59,864 nucleotides of DNA from Balneolaceae bacterium (GTDB lineage: Bacteria > Bacteroidota > Rhodothermia > Balneolales > Balneolaceae). The notes under the pieces were generated by a model. The model saw only the letters and a list, made by a program, of their open reading frames with translations. It did not search any database and was not told the origin of the DNA. The position numbers and the translations under genes were made by a program. This document shows, piece by piece, positions 16,712 through 59,750 of the stretch. The DNA lies in NCBI GenBank assembly GCA_007693295.1, contig REDT01000194.1:1-59864 (forward strand). Reading direction: 5' to 3'. Within the stretch, counting starts at the first letter, position 1, and every line of letters begins with the position of its first letter.

Positions 16712-16752
16712 CTGGACAAACTAGCGCGAGCGTCCCGCTCGCGCTAGTTTGT
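16712..16752. repeat. REP-like hairpin (left of RAYT)
   Basis: GGACAAACTAGCGCGAGCG-TCC-CGCTCGCGCTAGTTTGTCC: perfect 19-bp arms with 3-nt loop. Confidence 0.88.
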
Positions 16753-16833
16753 CCGCTTTCATTAGAAATTCAAGCCAAACTGTAAGGAGTTTCTGTTTTT
16801 TCATTCATACATATATGAACGAGTGGAGAGTGT

Positions 16834-17382
16834 ATGAGTGAAAAGTACAGAGTCAGAAATGAGTCATTGCCTCATTTCGTTACATTTACTGTGGTTAGAT
16901 GGATAGATCTGTTTACCCGCAATGAGTACAAAGAGATTGTTATAGAGAGCCTCAAATTCTGTCAAAAAGAGAAAGGTCTTCTTATATTTTCGTACTGCAT
17001 CATGACAAATCACCTGCACCTGATAGTGGGTACAGAGGGGAGTAATAGATTGGGCAATATTATCCGGGGCTTTAGAGGGTTCACATCTAAAAAATTGATC
17101 AAAGCGATTAAGGAAAATCCAAAAGAGAGCAGAAAAGAGTGGCTGTTGCAACTATTTTTTTTGGAAGGTCAGAAAAGATCATCTAATAAATACTTTCAAG
17201 TCTGGAAGAGAAATTACCACCCAAAAGGGCTTTACGATCAAAACATTTTTGATCAGAAACGTAACTACATCCATGCAAATCCGGTAAAGGCAGGCTTTGT
17301 ATTTAAGCCGGAAGATTTTGTGTTCAGCAGTGCGTCGAACTATGCGGGAAGGGGTGGGTTGATTGATGTGATTGTTGAGTAG
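16834..17382 (+). CDS. REP-associated tyrosine transposase (Y1_Tnp / IS200-like superfamily)
   Basis: HUH motif MTNHLHLIVG; NYIHANPVKAGFV C-terminal tyrosine motif; REP-like hairpins on both sides. Confidence 0.92.
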   Translation: MSEKYRVRNESLPHFVTFTVVRWIDLFTRNEYKEIVIESLKFCQKEKGLLIFSYCIMTNHLHLIVGTEGSNRLGNIIRGFRGFTSKKLIKAIKENPKESRKEWLLQLFFLEGQKRSSNKYFQVWKRNYHPKGLYDQNIFDQKRNYIHANPVKAGFVFKPEDFVFSSASNYAGRGGLIDVIVE

Positions 17383-17391
17383 AAAAGAAAA

Positions 17392-17478
17392 GAACTGTCA
17401 CGAGCGGGATGCTCGCGCCAGTTCTTTTACGCAAACTAGCGCGAGCGTCCCGCTCGTGATAGTTTGCCCCCGCTCGTG
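17392..17478. repeat. REP-like inverted hairpin pair (right of RAYT)
   Basis: AAGAACTG-TCACGAGCGGGATGCTCGCGC-CAGTTCTT followed by CAAACTA-GCGCGAGCGTCCCGCTCGTGA-TAGTTTG; the cores are reverse complements of each other with one difference. Confidence 0.85.
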
Positions 17479-19958: not shown

Positions 19959-20057
19959 GATGCCTCCATCAATTTACGATTCTATTGAAGGAGGGGGACA
20001 GCGTATGCGCAATAACAATATTGGTTTTATTGTTACTACATGGCATGTACTGCAGAT

Positions 20058-20145
20058 CGGTTTCCCTACGCCGGTATGACCCGGTTCAGGTTCAATGGGT
20101 ATGATCTCAGTCCCGTCACTTTCGTACCGGGACACCCCCAACCTA
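20058..20145 (-). promoter_or_regulatory. TPP (THI-box) riboswitch
   Basis: Reverse complement reads GGGGGTGTCCCGG...GACGGGACTGAGATCATACCCATTGAACCTGAACCGGGTCATACCGGCGTAGGGAAACC, with all THI-box landmarks. Confidence 0.96.
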
Positions 20146-20161
20146 TAATTGGTTTAGATTC

Positions 20162-24550: not shown

Positions 24551-24643
24551 ACGTGAGTTCGAGAAAGGGATTGGAGGTGTTTCTGCCAAAGGCCGGATTG
24601 TATGGCAGGGCGGGGGATTTATCCCGTGAATCCTTAGTGCTTA

Positions 24644-24943
24644 GTGCGTAATACCGTGAACCAACCTCCGATTCTGTTTCGTGGTTTTGCATGAAATAAT
24701 GCGGAGGTTTTGGGTGGATTCCTACCGAACCCTGGGCGGTGCTCAGGGCTGTGTGATTACGCGCCTTCAGCGCTGGGATTTGGAAAGAAATTTTATGTAT
24801 GATCACAACTAAAACAGCCCGGAAATCCAACCCCGAATGGGGTTGAAAATGAATAGCCCCGAGTGGAAACTCGGGGTATGGTGGCGAAGCCAAAGAGCCC
24901 CGAGGCGAGATTTGGGTCAGCGCTGTGATTTTACCGAGGGGTA
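24644..24943 (+). repeat. ~300-bp structured dispersed repeat, copy 1
   Basis: Collinear with the reverse complement of 47402-47703; several internal hairpins. Confidence 0.9.
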
Positions 24944-24989
24944 GAGGGAAAGACCAGACGGTGCCTGAAAGTTCCCGGTCAAGGTCAGA

Positions 24990-46610: not shown

Positions 46611-47312
46611 ATGATACGGTGTAACACTACCATAATTACACTTTGTGTAGCTTTCCTTATTACTTCCCTGATACCGCAAATCATGGAAGCACAGTCTTTT
46701 TCGCGTATTGGAATTGTGGGTAAGGCGGATACCCTTAATCGGGAGAAAGATCCGTATAAAGGAATCATTCTGCAGCCTGTTCTTGAAGAGTATCTCTATT
46801 ATGATCCATATCACGATATTTATACCCTTCAGAACGGTCTCTTTTTGGGTCCTTCACATGGGGGGATAGAAACGACAATTCGTCATTCCGGCAGCGACCT
46901 GTTTGCCAGCTTGTTTTTTGGTGCTTTGAGCGCAAGCAGGTCGGGTTCACCGGTGCAAGAGACATTTACAATTGGCGGACTCTCTTTTGGAAGTGAGTAT
47001 CTGTTGTCCGGTAATCGCATGGTTGTTGATCAAAGGGGACCTGAATTCTACATGAGGCTGAGCCCGGGTATTGGCATAGCCGGAAGAGGGGTGTTTACAG
47101 ATTATGAACCTGATTTTTACCTGGGTGTTTTCACTACTGCAATACTGGGGGCAAATCTGCGAATTTCTGATCGCACATCCTTTTTTATGCATGGAGGGGG
47201 GAGGGTGATCTGGTTTCCGGGCCTTGATGAAATCGGTTTTATGGGCGTGCCGGTCATCTCGGTCGGAATTCAATTTACGACATCTCCTCAGCTACCGATG
47301 GTCAGGTATTAA
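46611..47312 (+). CDS. Secreted/outer-membrane protein of unknown function
   Basis: 233 aa, signal peptide, beta-strand-rich; no family recognised. Confidence 0.6.
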   Translation: MIRCNTTIITLCVAFLITSLIPQIMEAQSFSRIGIVGKADTLNREKDPYKGIILQPVLEEYLYYDPYHDIYTLQNGLFLGPSHGGIETTIRHSGSDLFASLFFGALSASRSGSPVQETFTIGGLSFGSEYLLSGNRMVVDQRGPEFYMRLSPGIGIAGRGVFTDYEPDFYLGVFTTAILGANLRISDRTSFFMHGGGRVIWFPGLDEIGFMGVPVISVGIQFTTSPQLPMVRY

Positions 47313-47401
47313 CGAGCGGTAAATGCATATCATGCTCCCATCGCCCTGAAATGTAATCCAACCGCTGCCACTTATTCCCATACACCATCAGGTCTTTCCC
47401 G

Positions 47402-47703
47402 CTGCCCCTCGGTTCAATCACAGCGCTGATCAAAATCTCGCCTCGGGGCTCTTTGGCTTCGCCACCGTACCCCGAGTTTCAACTCGGGGCTAATCACGTT
47501 CGACACCTTCGGTGTTGGTTTCCGGGTAGTTTTTGAGTGTGAGCAATACACAAAAAACATTGCCAAATCCAAGCGCTGAAGGCGCGCAATCACACAGCCC
47601 CGGGCACCGCCCGGGGTACGGTGGCCCACCCACCCAAAACCTCCGCATCGATCTAGGCAAAACCACGAAGTACAATTGGAGGTTGGTTCGCGGGGTTACG
47701 CAC
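47402..47703 (-). repeat. ~300-bp structured dispersed repeat, copy 2 (inverted relative to copy 1)
   Basis: Reverse complement is collinear with 24644-24943. Confidence 0.9.
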
Positions 47704-47744: not shown

Positions 47745-49103
47745 TCACGCTCCCATTGCCCTTGTTTTCTTGTGGAAACGGATATTGTGCAGAATTCCCG
47801 CAACGGTTAAACCGGCAATTAATCCCACCCAAAGTCCCGGAGCTCCATAATCAGCGATGAACCCGAGATAGTAGGCTACGGGAATACCGATTAGCCAATA
47901 AGCAAGAAGATTTACATACATAGGCACTTTGGTATCTTTCAGCCCGCGGAGAGCGCCGAAACCGCTCACCTGCAGCCCATCTGAAAGCTGGAAGATAGCA
48001 GCCATCAACAGCAGCTGTACAGCAACTTCAATTACCTCCTGGTCGGTGGTATAGATGGAGGCAATCATTTCCGGAAAAAGATAGATAAAGAGTGCTGTAC
48101 ACGCCATGATACAGGAGGCCACACCCACACCCACAAATCCGCGGAACCGGGCTTCAGAAGGACGCTTTCTTCCAACGGACTGACCAACCCGGGCTGAAAT
48201 GGCCACAGACAGCCCGAATGGGATCATAAACGCCATGGATGCAAAGTTAATGGCCACCTGATGGCCCGCTATGGCTAAAGTGCTGATGGTACTTACCAAT
48301 AAGCTGACTACAGCAAACATGGATACCTCCATCGTTGAACTGACTCCTATAGGCCCTCCTATTCGAAGCAGTTCTCCCAGGTATTTTTTCTCAGGCCATC
48401 GAAACTTCCCGAAGATATCGAACCGCTTGTAGGCTTCAAATCCCATGGTAAACCAGAGCATCGCAATAAACATCACGGTAAATACTATTGCAGAGGCATA
48501 GCCTGTACCGATGGCTCCAAGCTGGGGGAATCCGAGCTTGCCAAACATTAATACGTAATTGGCCGGAATATTGACCAACAGGCCAATGCCTGCAATAAAC
48601 ATGGCCGGCCGGGTTACACTGAGGCCTTCATTAAAATATCGTAAAGCCCCGAATGCATATGCCGGAAAAATACCCCAGGAGATAGCTTTGAGATAACCGT
48701 TGGCAATCGGTACAATCTCTTCGGTAACGCCAATGAGCGGGAAGGCAAAATCGAGATTTCGCAGCAGGATAAAGCTGGGAACTGCCAGGATTTGACTCAG
48801 CCAGAGGACCTGCCGCGCATTTTTACCGATCTGCGTAAATTTGCGGCCACCCACATTTTGAGCCACGATTGGGGTTACGGCCATCATGCAGCCAAGGCAG
48901 AGTACCACAAAGGGAAGAAGTATGCTCGATCCTACCGCAACAGCTGCAAGATCTTCAGGTGAAAGACGGCCGGCCATCACCGTGTCAACAAAACTCATGC
49001 TCATTTGGAGCAGTTGAGCGATAATAACGGGTATACCGATTTTGAGCAGGCTCGAAACCTCCTGTTTAATACTGTTATTATATGTGGGTTGTGTGGGTTC
49101 CAT
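47745..49103 (-). CDS. MATE-family efflux transporter
   Basis: 452 aa, ~12 TM; IPVIIAQLLQMSMSFVDTVMAGRLSPEDLAAVAVGSSI...QVSGFGALRGLKDTKVPMYVNLLAYWLIGIPVAYYLGF. Confidence 0.95.
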   Translation of the reverse strand: MEPTQPTYNNSIKQEVSSLLKIGIPVIIAQLLQMSMSFVDTVMAGRLSPEDLAAVAVGSSILLPFVVLCLGCMMAVTPIVAQNVGGRKFTQIGKNARQVLWLSQILAVPSFILLRNLDFAFPLIGVTEEIVPIANGYLKAISWGIFPAYAFGALRYFNEGLSVTRPAMFIAGIGLLVNIPANYVLMFGKLGFPQLGAIGTGYASAIVFTVMFIAMLWFTMGFEAYKRFDIFGKFRWPEKKYLGELLRIGGPIGVSSTMEVSMFAVVSLLVSTISTLAIAGHQVAINFASMAFMIPFGLSVAISARVGQSVGRKRPSEARFRGFVGVGVASCIMACTALFIYLFPEMIASIYTTDQEVIEVAVQLLLMAAIFQLSDGLQVSGFGALRGLKDTKVPMYVNLLAYWLIGIPVAYYLGFIADYGAPGLWVGLIAGLTVAGILHNIRFHKKTRAMGA

Positions 49104-59302: not shown

Positions 59303-59374
59303 GCCAGTGTAGCTCAGGGGTAGAGCAGCTGTTTTGTAAACAGCCGGTCGTCGGTTCAAATCCGGCCACTGGCT
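59303..59374 (+). tRNA. tRNA-Thr (TGT)
   Basis: Cloverleaf GCCAGTG...CACTGGC; anticodon arm GCTGT-TTTGTAA-ACAGC. Confidence 0.97.
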
Positions 59375-59448
59375 CATGTTGGAGTTTGCACGTTATTAAA
59401 GTACTGTTCGATCTATTTAATTAGATGAAGAATGGGAATTTTGATACC

Positions 59449-59531
59449 GGGGGGATACCAAAGCGGCCAACTGGGGCAGACTGTAAATCTGTTGTCTTAC
59501 GACTTCGCAGGTTCGAATCCTGCTCCCCCCA
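59449..59531 (+). tRNA. tRNA-Tyr (GTA)
   Basis: GGGGGGA...TCCCCCC acceptor, long variable arm, CAGACTGTAAATCTG. Confidence 0.97.
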
Positions 59532-59594
59532 CTGCTTCAAATACGTAATATTAATTTCAGAAGAACTTGATGATAAATATTTGAAGCATTCCAG

Positions 59595-59667
59595 GCGGGC
59601 GTAGCTCAATTGGTAGAGCGTCACCCTTCCAAGGTGAATGTTGTCGGTTCGAGTCCGATCGCCCGCT
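59595..59667 (+). tRNA. tRNA-Gly (TCC)
   Basis: GCGGGCG...CGCCCGC; TCACC-CTTCCAA-GGTGA. Confidence 0.97.
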
Positions 59668-59678
59668 CTCTGAAAAAA

Positions 59679-59750
<72 letters not shown>

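Follow-up and report, generated by a model that had tools for sequence, protein, structure and literature searches.

Two stretches of DNA within a 59,864-nt window from a Balneolaceae bacterium are very probably non-autonomous elements of the REPIN/BIME type, each composed of two inverted double-hairpin REPs and tied to a RAYT (TnpA-REP), a single-domain Y1 HUH transposase. Most likely, such an element would be copied as single-stranded DNA (ssDNA) by a RAYT. The window, by which the whole stretch analysed is meant, is contig C158 of a 3.56 Mb genome in 334 contigs, and statements about the genome as a whole rest on searches of these contigs.

Copy 1 (24588-24989, plus strand) and copy 2 (47343-47703, minus strand) are homologous, with 83% identity over 320 bp (BLAST, E 5e-87). 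A previous reading of the sequence only had described 24644-24943 and 47402-47703 as a collinear inverted pair without a credible ORF. The collinearity was confirmed, homology in fact reaching past these limits to ~24588-24989 and ~47343-47703, and the copies share no ORF of 100 aa or longer. The two copies are homologous and inverted as claimed but are no unique pair, being two among dozens: ~56 BLAST pieces of the element were found in the genome, as well as 55 matches to a covariance model (R1, below). Many of the copies are partial, and many pieces are located at contig ends, as expected of repeats that break an assembly. A survey of 28 genomes of the same genus gave long matches in two, the genome under study and one of the other 27 (G001), and a single short match in a further genome (G005). 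Copy 1 occupies the whole gap between two convergent genes and ends at the stop codon of the SMC gene. The neighbours of copy 2, also convergent, are a 233-aa ORF (46611-47312, plus strand) and a MatE transporter gene (47745-49103, minus strand).

Two modules recur among the copies, A (query positions 47-184) and B (209-384), and are arranged as A-B in the window and also as B-A, ~45-60 bp apart, and as A-B-A. Behind these arrangements lies a compound unit of ~350-400 bp, mosaic and tandem-like, whose ends are ragged. Each module carries a REP in which a short hairpin with a GAA loop is joined to a longer GC hairpin through a linker of ~11 nt that closes with an AG-type foot. In copy 1 the module A REP (24730-24774, plus strand) comprises the hairpin CCCTGGGC-ggt-GCTCAGGG, a 12-nt linker and the hairpin GCGC-cttca-GCGC; upstream of it lies a long hairpin, AACCTCC ... 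GGAGGTT (24659-24710, plus strand), seen in the sequence and, for copy 1 only, in the predicted ssDNA fold. The module B REP of copy 1 (24827-24879, plus strand) comprises the hairpin CAACCCC-gaat-GGGGTTG, the linker AAAATGAATAG and the hairpin CCCCGAGT-ggaa-ACTCGGGG, and is followed by a conserved tail, TATGGTGGCGAAGCC...AGCCCCGAGGCGAGATTT...ACCGAGGGGTAGNGGGAAAGACC (24880-24958, plus strand). The corresponding REPs of copy 2 lie on the minus strand at 47572-47616 (A) and 47467-47518 (B). The hairpins previously listed as maintained between the copies, CAACCCC-GAAT-GGGGTTG versus ACACC-GAA-GGTGT and CCCTGGGC-GGT-GCTCAGGG versus CCCCGGGC-GGT-GCCCGGGG, are all present.

Comparison with Rfam identified the module A REP as RF01687. 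Copy 2 scored 39.1 bits over model positions 1-46, above the gathering score of 37, and copy 1 scored 35.5 bits, slightly below it; 9 of the 22 RF01687 matches in the genome were above threshold. RF01687 may be linked to group II introns. Module B gave no match to RF01687 at E ≤ 1, and a second Rfam family, RAGATH-28, was rejected at 19.3 bits against a gathering threshold of 45.3. The sequence-only reading had put the element forward as a candidate undescribed one and had named an existing Rfam family as a result that would count against it. The core does belong to such a family, and what survives of the claim is that the RF01687 entry describes an sRNA and is silent on any transposase. Elsewhere in the window, Rfam identified a TPP riboswitch (20046-20149, minus strand, 70.9 bits), and four tRNA genes are clustered at 59303-59750 (plus strand).

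The relationship between the two modules was investigated with R1, a covariance model built from 20 B cores only (GAA-loop hairpin, 11-nt linker, GC hairpin), for which E-values are rough owing to a short calibration. The 60-kb window was searched with every filter off. The B REPs of copies 1 and 2 scored 76.2 and 74.3 bits, respectively, both being training sequences that match by construction. On the opposite strand R1 also picked up module A, its matches falling precisely on the RF01687 hits in copy 2 (47570-47619, E 2.1e-5) and copy 1 (24727-24776, E 0.011). A and B are therefore inverted copies of one double-hairpin REP type, as in a REPIN. When B was compared with reverse-complemented A by sequence profile (nhmmer), significance was not reached (best E 0.05). 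The relatedness of A and B, drawn from structure plus sequence, is clear in copy 2, which carries most of it, and weak in copy 1.

The BIMEs of E. coli combine REPs of alternating orientation and conserved spacer motifs into mosaics; the mosaic layout of the present element is alike, its sequence is unrelated, and its REPs are double-hairpin. The A and B REPs stand in inverted orientation ~50 bp apart and many copies are dispersed in the genome, both of which are features of REPINs. The canonical GT[AG]G tetranucleotide was not found at the hairpin foot, which by inspection is (A/T)TAG or ACAG, and the element is therefore named REPIN-like rather than a canonical REPIN. Its likeness to the REPIN/REP and RAYT system (Bertels & Rainey 2011, PMC3116915; reviewed in PMC6006769) lies in dispersed, intergenic, non-autonomous inverted hairpin pairs and in the same hairpins flanking a single-domain Y1 HUH transposase. 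It differs in having two hairpins per REP, no GT[AG]G foot, a compound unit and a RAYT of the subclass 1.2 type. RAYT subclasses 2.6 and 3 are reported to be likewise without GTAG and to have atypical structures (PMC6006769).

Paired changes in the stems had been taken to imply selection on an RNA or ssDNA structure. Covariation was measured on a hand-named structure in 30 copies of B (15 pairs) and 23 copies of A (12 pairs). Standard pairs were formed in 91% of cells for B and 94% for A. Double-sided compensatory changes occurred at 3 of the 15 B pairs (23 cells) and 4 of the 12 A pairs (17 cells), although these changes are common to subfamilies and so represent fewer independent events than cells. 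The covariation score was 0.140 for B, compared to 0.066 in shuffles, and 0.197 for A, compared to 0.074; in neither case was the score reached by any of 500 shuffles, and both scores dropped when partners were slid by 1-3 columns. Copies folded as ssDNA also outperformed shuffled sequences (z −4.0 and −2.7). The compensatory changes are real, but a working RNA does not follow from them; a hairpin that serves as an ssDNA substrate would be just as likely to show covariation.

The covarying stems, together with the classification of RF01687 as a "Gene; sRNA" family in Rfam and the regulatory role suggested for it beside Tannerella forsythia proteases (PMC13298647), are the evidence that the copies might be a functional structured ncRNA, transcribed and acting as an sRNA or 3′-UTR element with stems selected as RNA. 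This explanation is considered very unlikely. The copies are variable, number tens per genome and are patchily distributed; they occur as inverted pairs and their positions are tied to transposase genes, as described below; and no promoter-like site was found at either window copy. The orthologous SMC site of G001 also argues against it. There the B module is present with its stems broken. At this one site its identity is 74.5%, whereas third codon positions in the gene next to it retain 89.7%, so that the copy evolves faster than those positions. Conservation of the structure at orthologous sites of close relatives was accordingly not found at the one site compared (SMC, in G001), and the G001 copy looks like the neutral decay of a mobile repeat rather than the maintenance of an RNA. 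The RF01687 copies beside the T. forsythia proteases may be RAYT-linked repeats instead.

At the SMC site of G001, module A is replaced by another repeat, the dispersed ggattcgcttggtgcccgataaaagcaatcaggataggcgaaatgaccggagccgtgg (on G001 contig C247; L068, L188), and a stretch related to ggattcgcttggtgcccgataaaagcaatcaggataggcgaaatgaccggagccgtgg lies between A and B at another locus (L097). As a test for an empty site, SMC could serve in G001 only, because its neighbour gene is not syntenic in other congeners, and the MATE site of copy 2 was used instead. The convergent stop codons lie 432 bp apart here. Among the 11 congeners that keep both genes, eight have them separated by −11 to 30 bp; the gaps in the other three are 154-644 bp, with no R1 match there. 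In G001 the distance is 336 bp and contains scrambled remnants of the element. Relatives may have lost intergenic DNA at the MATE site, which could account for part of its near-gapless state.

Among the copies for which both neighbours could be called by a simple ORF scan, 9 of 16 lie between convergent genes. This bias, and the terminator-like B hairpin of copy 1 at the end of the SMC gene (2 sites versus 0.4 expected), would be consistent with ordinary REP-like 3′-end elements that the host retains between convergent genes to terminate transcription or stabilise mRNAs. Insertion followed by purifying selection would give the same convergent bias, however, and copy 2 has no terminator-like site, congeners do without the element at these genes, and the association with RAYTs is left unexplained, such that host-kept 3′-end elements have very little likelihood.

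The link to RAYTs was investigated in the genome under study and then in other genomes. Nine Y1_Tnp matches were found in the genome itself. The RAYT on contig C71 (5311-5655) is an intact protein of 148 aa (Y1_Tnp E 2e-22) with the HUH motif DHIH, WQ and YIKNQEIHH, and it is flanked on both sides by inverted pairs of B-type REPs, as identified by a sequence profile and by R1 (E 5e-15, 1e-14, 2e-9 and 9e-8). It is the best candidate within the genome for the RAYT of the B-type REP. RF01687, the A type, was absent from the eight RAYT loci scanned in this genome; the same REP flanks a RAYT as type B at C71 and as type A at RAYTs of other genomes.

Four other RAYTs of the genome were rejected as partners. 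On contigs C189, C106 and C276 the hairpins or repeats flanking the RAYT are of another kind, and the RAYT in the window (16834-17382) is of a different motif class with unrelated hairpins. The latter (NHLH / YIHANP) lies between two hairpins related to each other, an upstream GGACAAACTAGCGCGAGCG palindrome (16714-16754) and a diverged downstream one (17429-17469), and is apparently another RAYT with hairpins of its own. The RAYT on C276 (L078, G000:C276, 1-1600) similarly sits amid its own repeats, GCCCTGAAAGGGCG and GCCCCAAAGGGGCGC, unlike the window element.

Elsewhere in the phylum RF01687 occurs patchily and in multiple copies, with matches in 78 of 399 genomes. Twelve RF01687-positive genomes contained 308 matches in ~50 Mb, and within these genomes RF01687 was present at 9 of 30 RAYT loci, compared to ~2% expected per locus (binomial p 5e-9). 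Possession of RF01687 had been the criterion for choosing these genomes, and a second set was therefore picked by protein, through a RAYT search of genome contigs in which the query alignment consisted mainly of RAYTs flanked by RF01687. RF01687 was found at 27 of the 60 RAYT loci scanned (E ≤ 0.02), 15 of them at or above the gathering score. Records with RF01687 at a RAYT came from Bacteroidetes, Acidobacteria, Planctomycetota, Verrucomicrobia, Ignavibacteria and Zixibacteria, in a survey that took in no Lentisphaerae genome.

The nearest RF01687 copies lie mostly 45-80 bp, and usually ~50-60 bp, from the ends of the RAYT genes. Of 44 such copies 35 face away from the gene (p 1e-4), being on the minus strand in 18 of 25 upstream and on the plus strand in 17 of 19 downstream; the orientation is a bias, not a rule. 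R1 gave 116 matches in 271 kb of RAYT loci, compared to none in 181 kb of non-RAYT loci, and coincided with RF01687 on opposite strands at many RAYT loci (e.g. L244, L261, L283, L235 and L222). In two genomes with a single RAYT (G391 and G326), that RAYT was flanked by RF01687. In the first of these, RF01687 occurs as −/+ pairs with a constant spacing of ~160 bp, and one inverted pair at the RAYT locus is predicted to fold into a long ssDNA hairpin (z −12). The motifs (D/N)H[VI]H, WQ and YIxNQxxHH were present in the C71 protein and in the proteins extracted from 8 of 9 RF01687-flanked loci (all but L141), one of the flanked proteins having NHIH in place of DHIH. By motif alone, the flanking transposases would be of the TnpA-Y1 subclass 1.2 type (DH[IV]H / WQ / YIxNQxxHH, ~148 aa), a subclass whose motifs are tabulated with REP "no" (Quentin 2018, PMC6006769). 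Rather than an sRNA gene, RF01687 most likely represents the hairpin that flanks RAYTs of this subclass, and it is more likely a transposase recognition site than a non-coding RNA.

The element exceeds a typical REPIN in size and has conserved flanking sequence outside its REPs, both of which would suit an element derived, like a MITE, from a conventional DNA transposon and associated with RAYTs secondarily. Shared terminal inverted repeats or exact ends were not seen among the copies, and the double hairpin of the Y1 transposase flanks is present in both halves, so that a MITE-like origin is judged highly improbable. Against the REPIN-like reading stands that the element ends are ragged, and neither an exact insertion junction nor a target duplication could be defined there. 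The sequence-only reading had offered a structured ncRNA or a nonautonomous mobile element. Taken together, the dispersed mosaics, their patchiness, the near-gapless sites and the hairpins held in common with RAYT flanks favour the mobile element over a working RNA.

As a RAYT-copied REPIN-like element, its REPs would fold while the DNA is single-stranded, at the replication fork. By analogy with known RAYTs, which bind and cleave folded single-stranded REPs with a tyrosine and copy REP pairs (PMC3116915, PMC6006769, PMC8266576), the transposase would bind a hairpin plus its foot, cleave with its single tyrosine and copy or insert the REP pair at a new place. Copies may then survive chiefly where they are harmless, between gene 3′ ends, and subsequently drift, recombine and decay. 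A further and very improbable reading is that the double hairpin is also transcribed and co-opted as an RNA partner of the RAYT (as guide, decoy or regulator), in which case RF01687 would serve a Y1 transposase of subclass 1.2 both as transposition site and as functional RNA.

As a RAYT-linked, REPIN/BIME-like repeat, the element is of an ordinary kind and an uncommon form. Y1 transposases flanked by TIRs, some double palindromic and some dispersed in the genome, are described as TIRtrons/TIRYTs, including a defined acidobacterial group, in the portion of Di Nocera 2013 (PMC3733652) consulted. These resemble the present loci in their inverted, partly double palindromic flanking repeats, as compared by description rather than by TIR sequence, and RF01687 is unmentioned in that portion. 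Under the name Acido-Lenti-1, RF01687 was categorised as an sRNA that occurs in Acidobacteria and Lentisphaerae (Weinberg 2010, PMC2864571), whereas module A, which matches it end to end, is here a transposase-flanking, often paired DNA repeat present in more phyla. An incomplete literature search found no link between RF01687 and RAYTs; most likely, what is new is the identification of RF01687 as a RAYT hairpin and its attachment to a subclass tabulated without a REP. This would give a mechanism-based identity to an Rfam family of 2010 that was lately still read as a possible regulatory ncRNA (PMC13298647), and annotations naming such loci sRNA genes would need correcting. A widespread RAYT subclass without a tabulated REP (PMC6006769) would gain a specific candidate hairpin substrate, and the paired hairpins, with their natural compensatory variants, would be ready substrates for studying REP recognition that does not depend on GTAG.
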